The notes beneath the pieces were generated by a model that was not told the origin of the DNA, did not search any database, and saw only the letters and a list, made by a program, of their open reading frames with translations. A stretch of DNA of 64,000 bases from Candidatus Zixiibacteriota bacterium (GTDB taxonomy: Bacteria; Zixibacteria; MSB-5A5; WJJR01): positions 62,001 through 126,000 of the forward strand of contig DASWIS010000008.1 in the NCBI GenBank assembly GCA_036397555.1, read 5' to 3'. Position numbers and translations under genes: made by a program. Shown here piece by piece: positions 34,610-49,220 of this stretch (position 1 is its first letter; every line of letters starts with the position of its first letter).

Positions 34610-35323
34610 CTATGCCGGCTGACCGTTGCCGTTTTCAAGACGGCCGTCGCGCATGTGCAGGGTGCGTTCGGTGCGCATCGGCATGTTGGGATCGTGGGTA
34701 ATCACCATGATCGTGTGCCCCTGCTTCCAGAGTTCCTCGAAGAGGTCGACGATTTCAAGCCCGGAGGCGGTGTCGAGGTTGCCGGTCGGTTCGTCGGCCA
34801 GAATCAAAGCCGGATTGTTCACCAGCGCCCGCGCAATCGCGCAACGCTGCATCTGGCCCCCGGATAGCTCGGTCGGTTTGTGATCAAGCCGGTCGCCCAG
34901 CCCGACGCGCGTCAACACTTCAGTGGCCCGCTCACGACGACGTTTGGCCGCAACGCCCTTAAACACCATCGGCAGTTCGACATTCTCCAACGCGGTCGCA
35001 TAGGGGAGGAGATTGAAGTTCTGAAAGACAAAGCCGATCTGCTCGTTGCGGATTTCGGCGAGACGATTCAGCGGCAGGCCGGCGATTTGTTCGCCGTTGA
35101 AGTGGTAGTGCCCTTCACTGGGGACATCGAGACAACCGAGGATGTTCATCAAAGTCGACTTCCCCGAGCCCGACGGTCCGACCAGCGTCATAAACTCGCC
35201 GCGGCGTACCTGCAGATTGATCCCGCGCAGCGCCTCGACTTTGACTTTGCCGGTATCATAGACTTTGCAGACCTGTTTTAAGTCGATGATGTTTCCGTTC
35301 TGCGTCATTGGTGAATCTCCCAT
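34610..35323 (-). CDS. ABC transporter ATPase, LolD/MacB type
   Basis: 237 aa with Walker A (GPSGSGKSTLMNIL), Q-loop (FVFQNFNLLPY), signature (LSGGQMQRCAIARAL) and Walker B (ALILADEPTGNLD). The D-loop and MacB-type ending (ITHDPNMPMRTERTLHMRDG) are present. This LolD/MacB class powers FtsX-type mechanotransmission exporters. Translation may start at 35323 or at the in-frame ATG giving MTQNGNII. Two FtsX-type permease genes and an adaptor gene lie just upstream on the same strand. Confidence 0.93.
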   Translation of the reverse strand: MGDSPMTQNGNIIDLKQVCKVYDTGKVKVEALRGINLQVRRGEFMTLVGPSGSGKSTLMNILGCLDVPSEGHYHFNGEQIAGLPLNRLAEIRNEQIGFVFQNFNLLPYATALENVELPMVFKGVAAKRRRERATEVLTRVGLGDRLDHKPTELSGGQMQRCAIARALVNNPALILADEPTGNLDTASGLEIVDLFEELWKQGHTIMVITHDPNMPMRTERTLHMRDGRLENGNGQPA

Positions 35324-35339
35324 TCCGCTCCAAATTGCA

Positions 35340-36590
35340 TCATTCGTACCGCAAAGTCTCCGCCGGATTCAGCCCAGCCGCACGGCGTGCCGGAAAGAAG
35401 CCCGACACCAGCCCGATCGACCCTAAAATCGCCACGGTGATCAATCCGATCGGCAAGGAGATCGTCGGCGATCCCAGCCACGACATCGACGACTGCGGAT
35501 CGCGCGGAATCATTGTCAGCAGGTCGGTAATCAACAGCGAAATGAAGATTCCAATAGCGCCGCCGGAGAAGCAGATCAATAGGGCCTCGAGCAAGAACTG
35601 ACGGTGGATCGTGCCCGGTTTGCATCCCAGCGCCATCTTGATTCCGATTTCCTTGGTGCGTTCGCGAATCACCACATACATGATGTTCGCCACGCCGATC
35701 CCGGCGATCAGCAGCGTCATGCCGCCGATGATCCCCATGAAGATTTGCATGCCCAGCATCATATTCTGCATTTCACGGCGTCCCTCGATCGTGTCCCAGA
35801 TCGACAGCGCCTGGTCGTCATCGGGATCGAACTTCAGACGCGCGCCCAGAACTTCATTCAGCCGCCGCTCGACATGCTTGTTGAGGTCGTCGGATTTGGG
35901 CTGAATGACCAGGTTGCTGAGATACTCATGCCCGAACATCGCCTTAAACGTCGGCGCCGGGATCGACGCCTTGTTGACATCGGGACCGCCGTACATCCCC
36001 ATCTGCTGTTTGTCGACTCCGGCGCCGATGACCGTAAACGGCACTCCAGCCACCATCACTGTCTTGCCGACCGGCTGGCCTTCGGGAAAGAGCTGTTCGG
36101 CGAGTTTGTATCCCAGAAAGATCACGCGCCGCTTCTCGGTCATATCGGTCTCATTGATATAACGGCCGCCGATGTCGGGATACTGCGCCCGCATCTCACG
36201 GTACGTCGGATACTCGCCGCAGATGTGCTCCGAGAGGACCGTGCGCCCGCGCACGAGATCGACCCCCCAGCGCGAATACTCTGCACCGATGCGTTCGATC
36301 TCGGGGATGCTGCGCCCGACGACGTCGACATCATCGGGCCGGAATCGGATGCGTCGGCCGCGCGGCAATCCCTCAAACGGAATTGAGGTCTGCCCGCCCC
36401 AGACGATCATGATGTTCTCGCCGAGGCCGCGCTGATTCTTGTCGAGTTGCTCCTTGAGTCCCTGCCCGAACGCCAACAGCAGCAGAATCGACATCGTTCC
36501 CCAGACGATCGCGGTGACCGTCAGGGTCGCGCGCTTCTTCTGTTTGCGGAAGTCCGCCCAGAAGTACTTCAGGAAGTTGCCGATGCCCAT
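35340..36590 (-). CDS. MacB-type ABC permease (FtsX domain), copy B
   Basis: 416 aa: one N-terminal helix, a periplasmic MacB core domain (about 45-265) and three C-terminal helices with the FtsX signature. Recognisable blocks are VTAIVWGTMSILLLLAFGQG, RVIFLGYKLAEQLFPEGQPV, VVIRERTKEIGIKMALGCKP and a final GLVSGFFPARRAAGLNPAET. It shares its whole architecture with the next gene upstream. Together with the ATPase and adaptor it forms a MacAB-like exporter. Confidence 0.92.
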   Translation of the reverse strand: MGIGNFLKYFWADFRKQKKRATLTVTAIVWGTMSILLLLAFGQGLKEQLDKNQRGLGENIMIVWGGQTSIPFEGLPRGRRIRFRPDDVDVVGRSIPEIERIGAEYSRWGVDLVRGRTVLSEHICGEYPTYREMRAQYPDIGGRYINETDMTEKRRVIFLGYKLAEQLFPEGQPVGKTVMVAGVPFTVIGAGVDKQQMGMYGGPDVNKASIPAPTFKAMFGHEYLSNLVIQPKSDDLNKHVERRLNEVLGARLKFDPDDDQALSIWDTIEGRREMQNMMLGMQIFMGIIGGMTLLIAGIGVANIMYVVIRERTKEIGIKMALGCKPGTIHRQFLLEALLICFSGGAIGIFISLLITDLLTMIPRDPQSSMSWLGSPTISLPIGLITVAILGSIGLVSGFFPARRAAGLNPAETLRYE

Positions 36591-36596
36591 GACGGT

Positions 36597-37829
36597 TTAG
36601 AGACGCAACGCCTCGATCGGATTGCAATGCGCCGCGCGCCGCGCCGGGAAATATCCGGCGACCAGGCCGATGGCGCTTAAAACCAGAAAAGTTATGATTC
36701 CCACCGAGGTGGATATGGTCGGCGTGCCGATGTAATCTTCGATGTTGAAACTGGGCACCGCCGACACTACTCCCCAGGCGAACAGAAAGCCGAACAGCCC
36801 GCCGATCCCTGTGAGCGCCAGTGTCTCGAAGACAAACTGGTTCATGATGAATCGCGGCTTGGCGCCGATGGCCATCTTGATGCCGATCTCCTTGGTGCGC
36901 TCCTCGACGACGACATTCATGATGTTGGAGATGCTGACCCCGCCGACGATCAGCGTGAACGCCCCGATCACGCCGAGAAACGTCCGGAAGGCGATGAAGA
37001 AGGCGCTGAAAAACTGCTCATTCTCGGTCGTATCCCACATCGCCAGTGCATTTTCATCGTCGGGATCGAACTTGTACTTCGCTCCGAGTACCTCGTAGAC
37101 GCCATGCTTGACCATCTCCGTATTGCCCGGCTCGTCCGCACGAAACACGATGTTGTTGACCCAGTCGCGACCGTACATCGCCTGAAACGTGGTCGACGGC
37201 ATGAACGCCTTCTGGACATCGCGCCCGCTGTAGGAAGAGTCCTGTTTCTTTTTGACCATGACACCCACGACGGTGAACGGAACACCGTTGACCATCACGA
37301 TCCGCCCGACTGCATTCTCCTCGCCGAATAAACTTTCCTTCAGGTCCGGGCCGAGGAAGATCACGCGGCGGCGTTTCGCCATATCTTCGTCATTGAAAAA
37401 ACGGGAGCCCTCATCGGGGATGATGTTGCGCATCAGCGCGTACTCGGGCCAGATGCCCGAAATCTGCATGAGTTTTTCCGTTCGGCCGACGCGCGCCTTC
37501 GCATCCCACAGCATATACTCGGCGGAGACCAACCCGATCTGCGGGACCTGCTCTTTCATCAGGCGGGCATCACTTTCGCGAAAGCTGATGCGACGATTCC
37601 GCGGCAACCCCTGAAACACTTTCGATGTGCGGCCCGGCCACATGATGACGATGTATTCGCCCATGCCGCGCATCGCCTCCTGCTGTGAGGCGTGGATGCC
37701 CTTGCCGAAAGCAAGCAACAAGACGACCGACGCCGTCCCCCAGAGAATGCCGAAGACTGTCAGCGCCGTTCTCAGTTTCTGCGAACGGATATCGCGATAC
37801 AGTTGTGTGAGGAAAACACCGAGCGCCAT
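36597..37829 (-). CDS. MacB-type ABC permease (FtsX domain), copy A
   Basis: 410 aa with the same layout as copy B: TM1 with TVFGILWGTASVVLLLAFGKG, a periplasmic domain including RVIFLGPDLKESLFGEENAV, then VVVEERTKEIGIKMAIGAKP and the terminal GLVAGYFPARRAAHCNPIEA. MacB normally works as a homodimer. Two different permeases here suggest a heterodimeric exporter. Its 3' end is 6 bp from the copy B start. Confidence 0.92.
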   Translation of the reverse strand: MALGVFLTQLYRDIRSQKLRTALTVFGILWGTASVVLLLAFGKGIHASQQEAMRGMGEYIVIMWPGRTSKVFQGLPRNRRISFRESDARLMKEQVPQIGLVSAEYMLWDAKARVGRTEKLMQISGIWPEYALMRNIIPDEGSRFFNDEDMAKRRRVIFLGPDLKESLFGEENAVGRIVMVNGVPFTVVGVMVKKKQDSSYSGRDVQKAFMPSTTFQAMYGRDWVNNIVFRADEPGNTEMVKHGVYEVLGAKYKFDPDDENALAMWDTTENEQFFSAFFIAFRTFLGVIGAFTLIVGGVSISNIMNVVVEERTKEIGIKMAIGAKPRFIMNQFVFETLALTGIGGLFGFLFAWGVVSAVPSFNIEDYIGTPTISTSVGIITFLVLSAIGLVAGYFPARRAAHCNPIEALRL

Positions 37830-37855
37830 GAATGTGTCCCGCGTCGCCGGATGTG

Positions 37856-38947
37856 CTACTCAATCTTCTTGGGCGGTCGTTCGATCACCTGTGCGCTGTC
37901 CTCGAGACCGGCGATGATCTCGACCTGCAGTCCGTCCGACAGCCCGGTCTCGACCACCAGTTCGATCGGCTCTCCCAGTTCATTGGCCACCTCGACATAG
38001 GCCGAATCACCCCGGAAGGTGACCAGACGTTCCGGCAGCACCAACACCGAGTCCTTCTTGTTGATGATGACCTCGGCATTGGCCGAATATCCGGCGCGCA
38101 GATCGATCGTGTCGGGAACTTCCGTCAGATGGATTTCGACATCGAACAGGATCGTGTTGTCTTCTTTGCGCGCCTTCGGCGAGATCTTATAGAGAGATCC
38201 GCTGACTTTGGCGCTGGGGAGGGCGCCGACTTTGATGTCGACCGGCATCCCTTCGGAGAGCTTGCCGACATCGATCTCATCGACTGTCCCCTTGAACATC
38301 AGGTTTTCCATCGTCGCCATCGTCAGAAGCGCGGTCCCTTCCTGAAACGACGTCAACGGCACCACCGGATCGCCCTCGTTGACATGCCGCGCCAGTATGC
38401 GTCCCGAAATGGGCGAACGGATGGTCGACTCGATGGCACGGTTGGCGATCTTCGTTTTGCCGCTTTCGATCAACGACAACTTCTCCTCGGCGAGATTCAT
38501 GCGCAGATTGGTCTCGTCCAATGTCTGCCGGGATCTTTCAAACTCATCGACCGAGACCAGGTTTTTGCCCATCAGGTCGTTCTTGCGGTCGAAATCGCGC
38601 TTGGCCTGATCGTAGGCCACCGCCGCCAACTGCACATTGCGCTGCGCCTCGGCATACTCCAACGGCGTCGGGTCGGGGGCGACCTCGATCAACGGATCGC
38701 CGACTTTGACCGAATCGCCGAGCTCGACATGAATCCGTTTGACCAACCCGGAAATCTTCGACTTGATGGCGATCTCGTTTTCCGGCTCGATCCGGCCGAT
38801 CGCCAGCGCCTTGTCGACGATCGTGCCGCGCTCGACGGTGACAAACTTAAAGGACGCATCGCTGTGGCCCGAACGCTTCCACACCATGAGCACCAGCGCG
38901 CCCGCCACGATCACGATGCCCAGTCCGATACCGATTTTCTTGAACAT
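37856..38947 (-). CDS. Periplasmic adaptor (MacA/HlyD family)
   Basis: 363 aa with an N-terminal signal-anchor helix (about 8-25), a biotinyl-lipoyl half motif (IAIKSKISGLVKRIHVELGD), a helical hairpin (about 90-165) and the second lipoyl half (IRSPISGRILARHVNEGDPV). The beta-barrel domain reads GMPVDIKVGALPSAKVSG. It would link the two FtsX permeases to an outer-membrane partner; no TolC-like gene is in the window. It is the first gene of the exporter operon. Confidence 0.92.
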   Translation of the reverse strand: MFKKIGIGLGIVIVAGALVLMVWKRSGHSDASFKFVTVERGTIVDKALAIGRIEPENEIAIKSKISGLVKRIHVELGDSVKVGDPLIEVAPDPTPLEYAEAQRNVQLAAVAYDQAKRDFDRKNDLMGKNLVSVDEFERSRQTLDETNLRMNLAEEKLSLIESGKTKIANRAIESTIRSPISGRILARHVNEGDPVVPLTSFQEGTALLTMATMENLMFKGTVDEIDVGKLSEGMPVDIKVGALPSAKVSGSLYKISPKARKEDNTILFDVEIHLTEVPDTIDLRAGYSANAEVIINKKDSVLVLPERLVTFRGDSAYVEVANELGEPIELVVETGLSDGLQVEIIAGLEDSAQVIERPPKKIE

Positions 38948-39131: not shown

Positions 39132-41732
39132 TTACTGACGGGCAATCTGTAACGGACAGGGCTGGCAGTACAGGCCCGCCGGATCCCCGGCCCTGAACGA
39201 AACGTCGATGCAGAGGGTCACATCCAGCAGGTTGATCGCCCCATCGCAGTTGACATCCGTCAGGAAACGCGGGCACAATGCCTCGTGATCGGCCGGCAGC
39301 CCCCGGTACGTCACATCGATAATCCGGACAACGTCAAATACGTTGGATTGCACGCCGTCGCAGTACGGATCGCCATGACAGGTGCACTCGCATTCGCTTC
39401 CGAAGTTCTGCTGAAAAAACGCCGTCGCGGTACTGTCAACGGAAAATAAATCGGCGACCGACGCCAACGCATTCGCGGGCGACTTCGACATTGGATGTAA
39501 CGGGGGAGGTGCGGTGAGAGCAAAAAGGTCGGCGCCCGTGTTGTAGTTGAACGCCGGAATGATGAGAAACTCATCGCCGGACAGCCACGGGTCCAAATCG
39601 CGCCGCGCCACCGTCAGCCAATACATAATCGGCATCGGATCTTCGATAGAATTGCCCATAAAATCGGGGTTCGGCGTTTCGTCGTATTCGTCCAGATAGA
39701 TCCACAACCACTCACGCGGGCCATCCGTCGCCGTGTTGTCCTGATCAACAAAGTACGGCGGCCAGTATCGCCCATCGACCAGACCACCCAAGACGTTGTT
39801 TTCGAGAAAACCAATGGTCAGACGCGTCGGCGGGTCGGTGTCGATGTTCCATGCAGACAGCGGGCAACTCTTAGTGAAGTCCTGAAAGCCATAAGTGCCG
39901 TTTTCAGGATTTACTATGTAAGGCGCAAACTCAGGTCGCGCAGAGGGGTCATCTGCGTTCCGCAGATATCGGTAAGCGTAGGAGACATCGGCGTGGCCGG
40001 AGTCGAAGTTGCCGTCGGCATCGGTCGGCGCCAATTTGATCAGCACATTCGGCAACAACAGCGGACTGACCGGCGCATATGAGCCGAATCCGCGAGTGTC
40101 GCCTGGCCCGCCCCAGCCGATCGCGCCATTGAAACCTTCAAACCCGAGCCCGTCCGCGCCCCCGGCCCACGTGAATCGGAGTGTGCCGTTGGGGATGTCC
40201 CAATCGCCGACCCCGGCGCTTCCCCCGACCACCTTCACCATCATGCCGTCAACGACGGGATAGTCGTCATTCCCCGATTGGTTGCCTTGTCCTGTCAATA
40301 ACGTGTTGCTGACTGTAATGTCCTCGAGATACCACGTGAAATTCCCCGGCTCGCCCTCGAAGCCAACATGGTAGTCGTGCCCCGTCGTCGCCGCTGGATC
40401 GAGTATCAGGGCGTACACTCGTCCATCGGATGATCCGGCGACATGTTCGGCATGAACCGTGTCGACAAAGAGTGGGATTACGCAGGTGTAGTCTCCGCTT
40501 GCCCCGACCATGAGCGCAGCCACAACCTCCTGCGTATCTCCCGGGGCCATTTCGAACGGGCCACAGGATAACATAAAACGACAGTCCGTAGAGTTAGCAT
40601 CGAGCCATCCGGTCTGAGTTACCGGATTTCCGTCCATCACGAACGTCGTCGGTTGGCCCGTCGTCGGGTTGACGATAACGGAGCCATCACGGTCAAGGCC
40701 GCGCATGTACGAGTATGCTTCATAGGCGCTGTTCGGGTCAGTCCCGTTGATGTATTTGTTGAACGCCGTCATCGGCAAGTTGCGATACCCCTGTTCCCAA
40801 ACTTGCCGGCGCGGAATCCACGCCGATGAAGTCGGATCGGCAGCGACAGGACCCTGAAGGATCTTGAAGCCGACGGCTGGGGGATTCTCGCCGTAGATCT
40901 GGTCGTATGAATTGGAATTGTAGGCAAAACCGAGCGATCGCGCCGGGCTGCAACCGACAAAGTCGTCTGATGCGCCGCCCAGGTCGACATCGGCCCACAA
41001 TGAGATGTGCATCTCATCAAGCAGATCGGTGCCCTTGTTCATCAGGGTGTATTGCAGAAAGATCGTGCGTCCCAGGTCGTCGCTGGTATCGTAGGCGTAC
41101 GCATATAGCTGGATTTCTAAATGGAGGAGTCCGACCGAATAGAGACTCGGGTCGCTATCGATGGCATCCTCCGACGCATGATTGAACACCGTCCACAACG
41201 CCAGTTCCCCCAGAATCAGCGGGATTTTATCCCCTTGGGCGTCGAGTGAATCCTGCCCGTCAGCGGCTTTGAGCGCGGGCGCTCCATCGTCGAACGGCCA
41301 CTCCGCGTAGTCCGGATTGCTCAGGCGCGTATCGCCCGTTCGAATTTTGTAAACCCGAAAACGGGGATCGTCGGGCTGGTACGTGCCGTTGGCCATCGGC
41401 CCCGGCGCATAATCGGTTGCGTATTCTGCTGCCGCAACACAGAGCTCCGCATCAGCCATCGCGCTCAGCCAAATCCCGGCGGCAAACATCAAAGTCTTGC
41501 GGCATGTGTCCGGAAAGTAGAGACCGTCATATCGACCGAGATACGCGGTTCGGTCATACGCAATTGAACCCGTGTTCGAGATGAACATGAGCAGGTTGTT
41601 CCCGTCGATAAACGTGCCGTAATCGGGTGACTTGTCACCATTAACGGCAATCGGTTTAACGGCTTCACCCGTAGCTGTCACACTCGTTGCAGCAACGACG
41701 AGTATCGCCCCGACCCAGCATAATGACTTCAC
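39132..41732 (-). CDS. Large secreted protein with Cys-flanked dockerin-like C-terminus
   Basis: 866 aa from GTG 41732 (AAGGA upstream and a clean signal peptide, WVGAILVVAATSVTATG); a start at 41786 would bury that signal. The long body (about 30-770) is Asp/Gly/Asn-rich with no catalytic motif that I recognise. It contains blocks such as YGTFIDGNNLLMFISNTGS and TLMFAAGIWLSAMAD, which I associate with large secreted FCB-group proteins. The last 86 residues are a dockerin-like pair: CECTCHGDPYCDG, NVFDVVRIIDVTYRG, TDVNCDGAINLLDV and YCQPC. Both calcium-type loops have Cys at position 4. Confidence 0.8.
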   Translation of the reverse strand: MKSLCWVGAILVVAATSVTATGEAVKPIAVNGDKSPDYGTFIDGNNLLMFISNTGSIAYDRTAYLGRYDGLYFPDTCRKTLMFAAGIWLSAMADAELCVAAAEYATDYAPGPMANGTYQPDDPRFRVYKIRTGDTRLSNPDYAEWPFDDGAPALKAADGQDSLDAQGDKIPLILGELALWTVFNHASEDAIDSDPSLYSVGLLHLEIQLYAYAYDTSDDLGRTIFLQYTLMNKGTDLLDEMHISLWADVDLGGASDDFVGCSPARSLGFAYNSNSYDQIYGENPPAVGFKILQGPVAADPTSSAWIPRRQVWEQGYRNLPMTAFNKYINGTDPNSAYEAYSYMRGLDRDGSVIVNPTTGQPTTFVMDGNPVTQTGWLDANSTDCRFMLSCGPFEMAPGDTQEVVAALMVGASGDYTCVIPLFVDTVHAEHVAGSSDGRVYALILDPAATTGHDYHVGFEGEPGNFTWYLEDITVSNTLLTGQGNQSGNDDYPVVDGMMVKVVGGSAGVGDWDIPNGTLRFTWAGGADGLGFEGFNGAIGWGGPGDTRGFGSYAPVSPLLLPNVLIKLAPTDADGNFDSGHADVSYAYRYLRNADDPSARPEFAPYIVNPENGTYGFQDFTKSCPLSAWNIDTDPPTRLTIGFLENNVLGGLVDGRYWPPYFVDQDNTATDGPREWLWIYLDEYDETPNPDFMGNSIEDPMPIMYWLTVARRDLDPWLSGDEFLIIPAFNYNTGADLFALTAPPPLHPMSKSPANALASVADLFSVDSTATAFFQQNFGSECECTCHGDPYCDGVQSNVFDVVRIIDVTYRGLPADHEALCPRFLTDVNCDGAINLLDVTLCIDVSFRAGDPAGLYCQPCPLQIARQ

Positions 41733-41898
41733 AGCCGTCCTTCCAGCCCCCGGAATGCAAGTAACTTCCAATATATGCATTTTCATGAAGCTGGCACTCG
41801 CCTCTGGCGGGGCGTGGCAGATTTTGACAGCCAGCTCGTACCGGGCTCAGGCAGAATAGGTTTGGCGAGGTAGCCGCATCAGCACACGCGCGCCGCTG

Positions 41899-43449
41899 TT
41901 AAGAGCACGGATCGCAGAACTGCGACGGGCTGCCGTTGCGGAAGGCGACGTCGACGAATGCGACGACATCGAAGACATTCGTCACGTTGTCGCAGGTGAC
42001 GTCGGTCTGCTCGTTGGGACAGTCGGCATCGAAGACGGGTGTGCCGCTGCGAAAGGCGACATCGACCGCGGCGACCACGTCGAAGACGTCCGTGACCCCG
42101 TTGCACGCCGGATCGGTATGGCACGGGCAGGAACATGGCGGCACGTACTTGGCGACCGCAAAGTCGCCGGAGTTTCCGGCGGTGTTGCCGCAGATCAGGA
42201 CTCCGCCGGAGCCGTCCAGTTCAATCGCCCGGCAGACTTGTGAGAAGATGGGTAAGGTCCCGTTGAGCAACCAGCGAAACCACGCGGAATCGCCCGCCGC
42301 CGTGAACTTGAATGTCGCCCAATCGGTCCAGAACGATCCGGTCGGATATGCCTCGCCCGTCAAGTAAATGTCTCCGTTCGCGTCGGCTTCAATTTCCCGG
42401 ATATTGACCGACGGGCTGATGAACCGGGCCCACAGCGTGTCGCCGTCGCTGTCGTATTTGATGACCGCTGCTTTGCTGGTTGCACCGGACGTGTATACCG
42501 TGCCGCCAAGACAGATGTTGCCGTTGCCGTCGAGGTCCATGTCGCCGACGACATCGGCTCCGGTCCCCGCGCCGACGAAGCGCCTGGTCCAGACCGTATC
42601 GCCGTCTGGCTCGTACCGGATCAGGACGATGTCATTGTCGAAACTCGCGTTCAAACTGACCCCGCAGACATAAATCGTGTCGGCGTCCGCCAGCTTCACG
42701 CGCGCTCCGGCGTCGTTGAGGTTGGCCGGGCCGTTGTAGCGCCGCGTCCAGTCGATGCCGCCTGAGGAGTTGTACTTGATCGTGACAATATCCTGGTTGG
42801 CGAGCGTGCCCTCGCCTGTCCCGACCACATACGCGTTGTCCGTGGCGTCGACTTCGATCCCGAACGGGGTGTCAGGGCCGCCCCCGGCATCGGCAAAGGT
42901 GTCGTCCCATTGGTACGTTCCCGATGCGTCGTAGTGCACGGTCACCCAGTCGGCTCCGTCACCCCCGGTGACCCACACATCGCCGCTGCTGTTGAGCGCC
43001 ATGTCGTTGGGGACCACACCGGCATAGGTTCGTGTCCAGACCGTGTCGCCGTCGGTCGTGTACTTTAAGACCCGCATCCCGACCGTATTGCCCCATCCCG
43101 CGATCATGAGGTGGCCGTCACCGGTCAGTTTTATCACACGCCCCTCTTCAATCGAGGCGCCGGCCGTCAGCGACTTGCGCAGCCAGACCGTGTCCCCGTC
43201 CGGGGTGTACTTGATGACGACGACATGCCGAGGGTTGAACATTCCCACAGGGTGTTGACTGTACCCCGTGACATAGGCATATCCATCATCGTCCACCGCC
43301 ACATCGAGCGCCGCATCAGACAGCCCGGAGGGGCCGTTGTAAATGCGAATCCACGCGGTGTCAATGTCCTCGGCGACCGCGGCCTGGGTTACCGGCCAAG
43401 CCGCGAGCATCGACCCGATCAGGCGTAATACAGTGTGTCTCATTGGCAT
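41899..43449 (-). CDS. Secreted beta-propeller protein with Cys-flanked dockerin-like C-terminus
   Basis: 516 aa from ATG 43449 with GAGG upstream and a signal peptide (LIGSMLAAWPVTQAAVA). The body has about eight SBBP/delta-60-like repeats with the consensus VxIKYxxDGDTVWxR and YVTGxxxG, indicating a beta-propeller. The C-terminal 78 residues are CSCPCHTDPACNG, TDVFDVVAAVDVAFRSG, TDVTCDNVTNVFDVVAFVDV and FCDPCS, a dockerin-like pair again with Cys at loop position 4. It is probably secreted; no ligand is known. Confidence 0.82.
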   Translation of the reverse strand: MPMRHTVLRLIGSMLAAWPVTQAAVAEDIDTAWIRIYNGPSGLSDAALDVAVDDDGYAYVTGYSQHPVGMFNPRHVVVIKYTPDGDTVWLRKSLTAGASIEEGRVIKLTGDGHLMIAGWGNTVGMRVLKYTTDGDTVWTRTYAGVVPNDMALNSSGDVWVTGGDGADWVTVHYDASGTYQWDDTFADAGGGPDTPFGIEVDATDNAYVVGTGEGTLANQDIVTIKYNSSGGIDWTRRYNGPANLNDAGARVKLADADTIYVCGVSLNASFDNDIVLIRYEPDGDTVWTRRFVGAGTGADVVGDMDLDGNGNICLGGTVYTSGATSKAAVIKYDSDGDTLWARFISPSVNIREIEADANGDIYLTGEAYPTGSFWTDWATFKFTAAGDSAWFRWLLNGTLPIFSQVCRAIELDGSGGVLICGNTAGNSGDFAVAKYVPPCSCPCHTDPACNGVTDVFDVVAAVDVAFRSGTPVFDADCPNEQTDVTCDNVTNVFDVVAFVDVAFRNGSPSQFCDPCS

Positions 43450-43615
43450 AGACACCTCTTCGGTTGAACGGCATTGCGAGGGCGGGTAGATCCGTCCAGT
43501 TGGTACTCGCAGACAATTTAACGATTTCTTTGCAAAGCACAATATCTCTGAGAGCGGGCCTCCGCGCGGTGGCGGACGGTTTTTCGCCCGCGCCGCTCTT
43601 TTTTGCAACGCCGTT

Positions 43616-45050: not shown

Positions 45051-45959
45051 CTACTGACAAGGGTGACAGAACGTCGTGTCAGGGTCGGCGGCGTAAAAGA
45101 CGACTGCCGCCATCTTGTCCAAATCAGTCTGGTCCGTGTCATCGTCGCAGTCAACATCCGTTGTGTGATACGGGCAACACGGATTGGGGTCGTCCGGCTC
45201 CGGGTAGCTTTGATTGACTACCTGGCTGATCTTGACGACGTCGAGGACGTTGTGGACGGTATCGCAGTATGGGTCGGCGTGGCAGTCGCAGGCGCAACAC
45301 ACGGTGACTAATCCGGCGGTAAATGACGGAATCACTTCCTGACCATCCCCGTCCACGAAAACCAGATGGTTTCCTGGAGATATACACTGCGAGTCAATGA
45401 CAAACTCTCCGTTGCCCTCGGCTACATCGAATACGATTTCGATTGATGGTGTCCCGGAGTCGGGATTTCCATCACTACCAGGATTGAGTGAGTCGATACC
45501 TACGCGTACAAAAAGGACCGCGTCCGGGCTGACAAAGTCGACGGCGGAATCTGGAATACACCACGCCTGTCCATTTGTGTCCGATCTGCAGTATGATCCG
45601 AAATCGAAGCCGCCCGACCACTTGGTGGCGTAGTACCCAGTAACTCCGAAACTGCTGGCGGAGTCCCATGCGGAAAGTCGTCCTCCAGGAACTACCATCG
45701 CCCGTTGCTTCCAAAAGGCGGCTCCGCCGACGGTTCTTAGCTCAAGTGGTAGCAGAACACCTGTCAGAGCGACTTCGTTTGTCAGGTAGACGCCGATTGT
45801 CACACCGGTGTCTCCAGGCGGGACATCTCGTGACTGGATCGTCACCGAGTTTTGCGCCCGCGCGGACGCACAGGCGAACAACGCAATTACGATGAACAGA
45901 GTCGCCAGGATACCCATGCGCCCACCGTTGATCCTCACTCGTTCACCTAAAGCTCCCAT
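45051..45959 (-). CDS. Secreted protein with cohesin-like and Cys-flanked dockerin-like domains
   Basis: 302 aa from ATG 45959, which has GGGAGG at ideal spacing; a signal peptide follows (LATLFIVIALFACASARA). Residues about 35-215 look like a beta-sandwich: VTIQSRDVPPGDTGVTIGVY, VALTGVLLPLELRTVGG and IEIVFDVAEGNGEFVIDS, reminiscent of cohesin or TIG-like folds. The last 82 residues are the dockerin-like pair (CDCHADPYCDTVHNVLDVV, TDVDCDDDTDQTDLDKMA, FCHPCQ). Having both in one chain is notable. The cohesin assignment is tentative. Confidence 0.75.
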   Translation of the reverse strand: MGALGERVRINGGRMGILATLFIVIALFACASARAQNSVTIQSRDVPPGDTGVTIGVYLTNEVALTGVLLPLELRTVGGAAFWKQRAMVVPGGRLSAWDSASSFGVTGYYATKWSGGFDFGSYCRSDTNGQAWCIPDSAVDFVSPDAVLFVRVGIDSLNPGSDGNPDSGTPSIEIVFDVAEGNGEFVIDSQCISPGNHLVFVDGDGQEVIPSFTAGLVTVCCACDCHADPYCDTVHNVLDVVKISQVVNQSYPEPDDPNPCCPYHTTDVDCDDDTDQTDLDKMAAVVFYAADPDTTFCHPCQ

Positions 45960-46157
45960 TGCTAACCTCCCACTTACCGAGGAGCCGGGCCCCTCAGGGA
46001 TTGTCGCACGGGTGTTTGGCCCTGACCGCTTTTGGTCCCCCAAACGGGATCGACATCAGGGCTTGCCTGAGAAACGCTCGCTACTCTGAAGCGCATCGAA
46101 ATGAATGCAGACGATCTCGATGGACTTAACGTGGGCCATCAAAGTGACCTATGTGAA

Positions 46158-47905: not shown

Positions 47906-48820
47906 TTAGTTACCACTGCCCTCCCCATCAGCACAATTCTGGCCGAGGAATTGATCCAGTTCGACCAGACGGTACTGAGGGGACGCCTCGATCGCATGTC
48001 GGATGATCGGCACGTGGCCGGCCCCGATGATCAGCAGCAGACGCTCGCCCGGTCCCTCGGTGAGTCGCGTCAGATTGGCAAAGATCCGGAGGTTGCGGTT
48101 GTACCACCCTGTCTTGGCATCGGCACCGGGGTACTCATCCCCGAACCCGGCCTTGAACGTGCCGATCAGGTAATGCCCATGCCCCACCGCGAGACGGTCG
48201 GGAACATTGATCTGAAGAAATGTCTCAATGAGCGACTGTTGCGCCTTTTGTCGATCTTCGTACTCGTACAGCGACTCATAGAACTCCTCCCACGGCGCCT
48301 CAACGCTGTCAAGCAGTGTGTCCTGACCGTGCTCGACCGCATATTCCCACGGGTTGACGAACGGCTGGTACCAGCGCGCCTTCGCATCGACGGGATACAC
48401 GCGGTCGTGCCCGTTGCCACGCGCCAGACGAAATCCCAGTTGGTAGATCTCGTTGGCCGGCAAGTCGAACTTGTCTGCGAGGTAGGAATCGTATTCGGAT
48501 TTCAGTTTCTCTGCACGGTCGGCGTGAGCCTCCACGGCAATCTTCGTCGGGTGATAGTTCGACAGGCAACGCACGATCTCCCGGATTTCTGACTGACGCG
48601 ACACCGACATGATGTCCACATCGTATTGCGGTTTATAGCCGTCGAGACCCGCGTCCTTGAAGTGGAAGACCCCTAGCACCAAAACGTCCGCCAGAGGCGC
48701 TGGCGGTGTCGGGGGCTGTGCCGCCGCTACTTCAACGCCGATGCAAATGACGGTCGTGACCGATGCGACAGTCGCCGACAACAGCAGGGGTGCGATCAAA
48801 GCAGGGAGCAACTTTCTCAT
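47906..48820 (-). CDS. Exported DUF5694 protein (TraB/ChaN-like superfamily)
   Basis: 304 aa from ATG 48820 with GGGAGG upstream and a signal peptide (about 1-32). The mature part begins LADVLVLGVFHFKDAGLDGY and has KIAVEAHADRAEKLKSEYD, AVGHGHYLIGTFKAGFGDEY and LLIIGAGHVPIIRHAIE. This set fits DUF5694, a relative of the TIKI/TraB/EreA group with paired His and Glu residues that may bind metal. Possible hydrolase; substrate unknown. Confidence 0.82.
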   Translation of the reverse strand: MRKLLPALIAPLLLSATVASVTTVICIGVEVAAAQPPTPPAPLADVLVLGVFHFKDAGLDGYKPQYDVDIMSVSRQSEIREIVRCLSNYHPTKIAVEAHADRAEKLKSEYDSYLADKFDLPANEIYQLGFRLARGNGHDRVYPVDAKARWYQPFVNPWEYAVEHGQDTLLDSVEAPWEEFYESLYEYEDRQKAQQSLIETFLQINVPDRLAVGHGHYLIGTFKAGFGDEYPGADAKTGWYNRNLRIFANLTRLTEGPGERLLLIIGAGHVPIIRHAIEASPQYRLVELDQFLGQNCADGEGSGN

Positions 48821-49220
48821 AGCACCTCCCCTGAGGGGAAGATTGAGTTGCTGGTTACCGCGCATGTGACCTTCCTACGCGTGATTGACAACCGGCAGTT
48901 TGCTCCTCCTTTCTACAATTCAACGGGCGTAGATGTTGAGTTATCGGGATATGGTGCAGTCGCACGCACGCGGCCCCGCATGGAAGCCCATTGCCACGGT
49001 GTGCGCTAAGTAGTCGATCGAGATACACCATTCCTTCCGTGTCGTACATCCCGAGGGCCGACAGCGTAGCGACAATCGGGTCGTGCGGGTCAATCGCGGA
49101 GCATGTGCGGGACTGCGATGCCGCGTCGCATGCTCGTGTGATGCTGCCGATGCGATTGTGGCATCCCCGCCTGCGAGTGTCAAGCGGTTTGCTGTGCTGC
49201 CGATTGGTGAAACGACGGTG
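48821..49220. other. 400-bp region without a clear gene
   Basis: Short frames on the minus strand (64-80 aa) look spurious: unusual composition, no domain and no ribosome-binding site. The region separates two minus-strand genes and should carry the DUF5694 gene promoter. I see no strong hairpin or repeat. Confidence 0.45.

Follow-up and report, generated by a model that had tools for sequence, protein, structure and literature searches.

Dockerins are best known from cellulosomes, and in all characterised cases known to us they bind cohesins. The canonical EF-hand or dockerin loop has 12 residues, with Ca2+ ligands at positions 1, 3, 5, 9 and 12. Disulfide-rich docking modules are found among the fungal dockerins, the fold of which is, as far as we know, unrelated to that of the module described here. 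The dockerins of clostridia and ruminococci have a hydrophobic intramolecular clasp with ring stacking between Tyr5 and Pro66 (PMC4728124). For Ca. Stygibacter (Cloacimonadota), a cellulosome-like complex was proposed in which a cohesin scaffoldin carries a C-terminal attachment domain, and C-terminal dockerins are found on peptidases and glycoside hydrolases (PMC8542988). Part of the same publication refers to the 'planctosome' of freshwater Planctomycetes, a non-cellulosomal cohesin-dockerin system tied to polypeptide degradation (PMC8542988).

Here, a stretch of 64,000 nucleotides from a Candidatus Zixiibacteriota bacterium (the window) was analysed, in which the last ~80 residues of each of three predicted proteins form one cysteine-rich unit with two loops (Table 1). 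An earlier note on this DNA had placed such a unit, described as a dockerin-like module, at 39135-39392 (-), which is exactly the final 86 codons of the ORF at 39132-41786 (-). The length of 866 aa given for the protein holds for a start at the GTG at codon 19, which yields a plausible signal peptide; read from its ATG, the ORF is longer. The two loops with cysteine at position 4 and their CxCxCH and YCxPC flanks are all present as described (CECTCH, DPYCDG, DVNCDGAINLLD and YCQPC), and the cysteine at position 4 recurs, as claimed, in all six loops of the three modules (DPYCDG/DVNCDG, DPACNG/DVTCDN and DPYCDT/DVDCDD). In loop 2, however, most dockerins of the same class that are ordinary in other respects share this cysteine, which thus, taken alone, does not distinguish the module. 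No Pfam domain was found in gene 1 outside the module. Immediately downstream of gene 1, and in its orientation, lie genes for an ABC ATPase, for two permeases of the MacB/FtsX type and for an adaptor of the HlyD/MacA type (34610-38947, -), and a DUF5694 protein (E 7.6e-46) is encoded near the three module genes at 47906-48865 (-).

Table 1. Positions of the module-bearing genes and their parts in the window
Feature	Position	Strand	Remarks
Gene 1, predicted secreted, module at end	39132..41786	-	884 aa from ATG; 866 aa from GTG at 41732
Cys-stapled dockerin module 1 (putative staples)	39156..39398	-	profile match at contig C8:101156-101398; AlphaFold2 pLDDT 94.5
Module 1 loop 1, DPYCDGVQSNVFD, Cys at position 4	39333..39371	-	one residue over the canonical EF loop (12)
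Module 1 loop 2, DVNCDGAINLLD, Cys at position 4	39222..39257	-	canonical 12 residues
Gene 2, SBBP/delta-60 beta-propeller-type, module at end	41899..43608	-	
Cys-stapled dockerin module 2 (putative staples)	41902..42141	-	profile match at contig C8:103902-104141
Gene 3, cohesin-like domain joined directly to module	45051..46043	-	
Gene 3 cohesin-like domain	45300..45854	-	AlphaFold2 pLDDT 93.2; 36 best PDB fold matches all cohesins
Cys-stapled dockerin module 3 (putative staples)	45054..45302	-	divergent subtype, common to C7 and C26 paralogs

On the three window modules, no Pfam or NCBIfam model scored above its cut-off. The dockerin model PF00404 gave a single match (E 0.028, 15.1 bits versus a cut-off of 22.9) and none on the other two modules; genome-wide it matched seven times, as compared to 58 modules. 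The AlphaFold2 model of module 1, computed with 57 paralogs (pTM 0.83), contains two main helices following the two loops. When compared to the PDB with Foldseek, its 11 best matches were all dockerins (probability up to 0.96, E 0.15-3.5), with target TM scores mostly between 0.6 and 0.78. All ten matches of a sequence-profile search of the PDB were chains of cellulosomal dockerin-bearing proteins, each of them weak (E 0.07-1.2), and hhalign aligned the module at 98.8% (E 8.7e-17) with a set of 11 dockerins of ordinary type from its own class. Thus, as judged from profile comparison and predicted structure, the module is a dockerin variant in fold and descent and not a separate or new fold. 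The distinct family proposed in the earlier note stands in so far as it is covered by no Pfam or NCBIfam model, has many copies and contains cysteine pairs that behave like disulfides; it does not stand as a sharply bounded family, since it grades into the ordinary dockerins of its class in both profile and fold. No described dockerin family with the same cysteine pattern was found in the family libraries and papers searched, the fungal dockerin model of Pfam had no match on the isolated window modules, and no cysteine-rich or disulfide-bearing prokaryotic dockerin is described in the literature searched, which included few subscription papers. Overall, the observation made in the earlier note is confirmed, and its interpretation is partly supported.

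With regard to the Ca2+ ligands, loop 2 fits the canonical pattern (D1, N/D/T3, D5, N9, D12). In loop 1, position 3 is D or N in only 7 of 60 scored modules of this genome, and loop 1 of module 1 has an insertion of one residue. The loop-1 cysteine is present in 43 of these 60 modules and the loop-2 cysteine in all of them. Any binding of Ca2+ would be expected mainly in loop 2.

A profile built from the three modules matched 78 places of the 2.63-Mb assembly at E <= 10. In the extracted ORFs, 58 full modules (score above 50 bits) were present in 57 proteins, the three window copies included; with this number of copies and E values down to 1e-42, the pattern is far beyond chance. Cysteine makes up 9.5% of the residues within the module and 1.8% outside. 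The module is followed by no more than one residue in 44 of the 57 proteins and by no more than 20 in 56; a single protein has its module near the N-terminus and another contains two. Module matches number 47-94 in each of six other genomes from this taxonomic family and 37-54 in genomes of the same order, with fewer or none elsewhere in the class. On contig C28 (C28:12018-31825, L068), a tandem array consists of seven genes in the same orientation, each with the module at its end; six of these modules belong to a subtype lacking the third N-terminal cysteine and the loop-1 cysteine, so that the array probably arose by local expansion.

A signal-peptide-like N-terminus was found by a heuristic in 55 of 66 ORFs with a module hit, as compared to 19 of 43 other frames of the window, and most of the 57 proteins are apparently secreted. 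Their Pfam families include FG-GAP, PKD, TSP3, S8, M14, M4 and trypsin-like peptidases as well as SBBP propellers, cadherin-like domains, lysyl oxidase and plastocyanin.

The module has up to eight cysteines: three before loop 1, one at position 4 of each loop, one in the linker and two in the tail. Cysteine occupancy was scored by HMM alignment on 207 modules of many genomes. The third N-terminal cysteine (c) was defined as the one three residues before loop 1, which excludes the cysteine beside GD in class-level dockerins. This residue and the loop-1 cysteine (d) were both present in 126 modules and both absent from 78, with three discordant cases; in this genome alone, 43 modules have both, 23 have neither and none is discordant. 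On a tree built without the cysteine columns, parsimony requires 15 changes for each of the two and 16 for their joint states, as compared to 15+15 for separate changes, which means that nearly all changes of c and d are simultaneous. Cysteine pairs for which no bond is expected lack this coincidence (c,f 24 = 15+9; c,e 23 = 15+8). On well-supported branches only, about three independent pairs change in the same direction, none in opposite directions and one is unchanged, which is too few for significance; the co-change is thus based on the tree without this restriction and on the large number of paralogs. Joint presence and loss of c and d is as expected of one disulfide, and a putative bond between the third N-terminal cysteine and loop-1 Cys4 is thereby well supported, in line with the disulfide-stabilised module proposed earlier.

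For the loop-2 cysteine and one tail cysteine (f-g), 19 joint changes were obtained as compared to 9+14 separate ones. Ordinary dockerins of the class often carry just these two, and a module type with four cysteines (G003/G005) lacks the loop-2 cysteine and one of the two tail cysteines. A second bond, from loop-2 Cys4 to the first tail cysteine, would accordingly be expected with moderate support. The linker cysteine in 'CP' tracks the N-terminal cysteines (phi 0.73; 16 joint changes as compared to 8+11). These weaker co-losses suggest loop-2-to-tail and head-to-tail or head-to-linker bonds; the two remaining N-terminal cysteines might pair with the linker cysteine and the last tail cysteine, suggestive of a covalent head-to-tail clasp. 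The pattern as a whole suggests three ranks of staples: loop 2 to tail, the head-linker/head-tail clasp, and loop 1 to head.

Alternatively, the cysteines could bind a metal, either zinc or an Fe-S cluster, and form no disulfides. The CxCxCH motif would be compatible with this, as would the genome, in which searches with DsbA (PF01323) and VKOR (PF07884) gave no match. However, cysteines are lost by pairs and not by fours, the pairs flank the loops and termini of the predicted dockerin fold, the cysteine count is even in 61 of 66 modules of this genome, and a CxxCH heme site is absent; we therefore regard metal binding as very improbable. A c-type heme site, which needs CxxCH, was rejected separately, as CxCxCH has the wrong spacing. 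The lack of a DsbA or VKOR match is a real difficulty for the disulfides, of which each of some 57 exported proteins would have up to four to form.

Possible partners of the module are encoded in the same genome. The mature gene 3 protein begins with a domain of 185 residues that, in isolation, has no match in Pfam, PF00963 included, even at E values as high as 10. In a comparison of its AlphaFold2 model with the PDB, ranks 1-36 are taken up entirely by cohesins and complexes of cohesins (E 1.4e-6 to 5.7e-4), and the domain is thus predicted to have a cohesin fold. Genome-wide, this cohesin-like family was matched 19 times, about half of the proteins concerned bearing the Cys-dockerin, and Pfam cohesin adds five matches over cut-off. 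Altogether, the genome has about 20 cohesin-type proteins for 57 with a dockerin, and some half of the former carry a dockerin themselves. The earlier statement that cellulosome genes are absent is correct for glycoside hydrolases, none of which occurs among the 25 commonest of the 37 Pfam families of the 57 host proteins, but not for cohesins, given the predicted fold of gene 3 and the Pfam matches. A 1730-aa protein on contig C2 (C2:1-7505, L055) has an internal and a C-terminal module with a cohesin-like domain in between.

The presence of candidate partners with a predicted cohesin fold also bears on the possibility that the module is merely a disulfide-hardened C-terminal cap against proteolysis, without a specific partner. 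Up to four disulfides per 80 residues, the peptidases among the host proteins and the partly degenerate loop 1 would suit such a cap. Besides the encoded partners, the strong conservation among the 57 paralogs, with NVFDVVxAVDVAFR in both halves, goes beyond what a cap would seem to need, making this explanation quite unlikely.

The genome encodes SprA, a marker of the type IX secretion system (T9SS), and 30 T9SS tails (TIGR04183). Five of these tails are located on cohesin-type proteins (C25, 884 aa and 1010 aa; C30, 847 aa; C8, 1868 aa and 339 aa) and none of the 30 on a module-bearing ORF. The C25 884-aa protein combines its tail with two Pfam cohesin matches, one of them below cut-off. At C25:4.6-11.3 kb (L244, C25:4300-12300), two T9SS-tailed cohesin proteins flank a 256-aa protein with a cohesin-like domain and a single-loop dockerin remnant; this cluster is a candidate scaffoldin locus. 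An exclusive occurrence of cohesins in T9SS-tailed proteins was rejected, as about half of the cohesin-like proteins bear the Cys-dockerin instead. The module is also not itself a shared T9SS tail, since it is not TIGR04183.

Across 58 genomes of the class, the densities of T9SS tails and dockerins are inversely related (rho -0.43; -0.50 with p 0.04 for 17 family medians), the tail counts being those among the matches listed and a count of 82 meaning at least 82. This relation would fit one display route having partly taken the place of the other, but it may be phylogenetic. It could also be taken to mean that the module is a C-terminal sorting or secretion signal that replaces the T9SS tail, is recognised by a dedicated translocon or anchor and has lost cohesin binding. 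The module's position within one residue of the C-terminus in most host proteins, the fact that the host proteins are of kinds that elsewhere often bear T9SS tails, the absence of ORFs with both module and tail, and the far higher number of T9SS tails in dockerin-less genomes of the class (among the matches listed) speak for a sorting signal. Against it, some modules are internal or flanked by cohesin-like domains (L055, L046, L092), and characterised dockerins, as far as we are aware, bind cohesins; the inverse relation itself may only reflect phylogeny, with tail counts that are lower bounds at 82. On balance, we consider such a sorting signal unlikely.

The best reading of the computed features, that is family, copy number, position, dockerin homology, predicted folds, cysteine co-variation and T9SS-tailed cohesins, is in our opinion a cohesin-dockerin display system of non-cellulosomal type, the dockerins of which would be stapled by disulfides; we hold this to be rather probable. 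Weighing against it are the small number of cohesin-type proteins relative to dockerin proteins, the lack of a DsbA or VKOR match, the missing position-3 ligand in loop 1 of many modules, the few independent c-d pairs on well-supported branches and Foldseek E values that all exceed 0.1. Two EF-type loop-helix units would be held together by up to four disulfides and not solely by Ca2+ and a hydrophobic clasp. The C-terminal module of the 57 proteins would most likely plug them into cohesin-type domains; the T9SS-tailed cohesins could be fixed on the outer surface, and the clients would then be displayed on the cell or chained together via the cohesin-dockerin fusions. A wider version, which we put forward tentatively and with a less than even chance of being right, is a non-cellulolytic system of the whole lineage, with T9SS-sorted cohesin sockets on the outer membrane, chaining cohesin-dockerin fusions and ~57 clients on stapled dockerins, the staples having been added pairwise from loop 2-tail through head-tail and linker to loop 1.

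If true, the dockerin-cohesin plug would be a general way for this bacterium to arrange its secretome and not a device for cellulose. The module would be a natural example of a dockerin hardened by disulfides, with ~200 variants in which the bonds show up as cysteines gained or lost in pairs, and it could be useful toward stable protein-assembly tools. The system would also allow a direct test of how surface display is divided between proteins tagged with a dockerin and type IX secretion.

When compared to type I dockerins (PF00404, non-cellulosomal ones included), the module shares the duplicated loop-helix unit DxNxDGxxNxxD-V(V/I)xx(I/V)xxxF, the C-terminal position on secreted proteins and a predicted fold matching 4fl4, 2vn6 and 1ohz; it differs in having up to eight cysteines and a loop 1 degenerate at ligand position 3, and stays below the Pfam cut-off even at its best E of 0.028. 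As in the clostridial and ruminococcal clasp, head and tail would be held together and the module stabilised, but here the clasp would be covalent, from N-terminal cysteines to those of tail and linker. With the planctosome, the system would share its non-cellulosomal cohesin-dockerin nature, the former belonging to another phylum; we know of neither a T9SS nor cysteine stapling in it. Ca. Stygibacter likewise has cohesin proteins with a C-terminal sorting domain and secreted peptidases with C-terminal dockerins, and since an anchored scaffoldin with dockerin-tagged peptidases was proposed there, the architecture as such has a precedent. In contrast to Ca. Stygibacter, there are 57 clients here, with no glycoside hydrolase among the 25 commonest of 37 families, many cohesin-dockerin fusions in place of a single giant scaffoldin, which was not seen, and dockerins that are probably stapled by disulfides.
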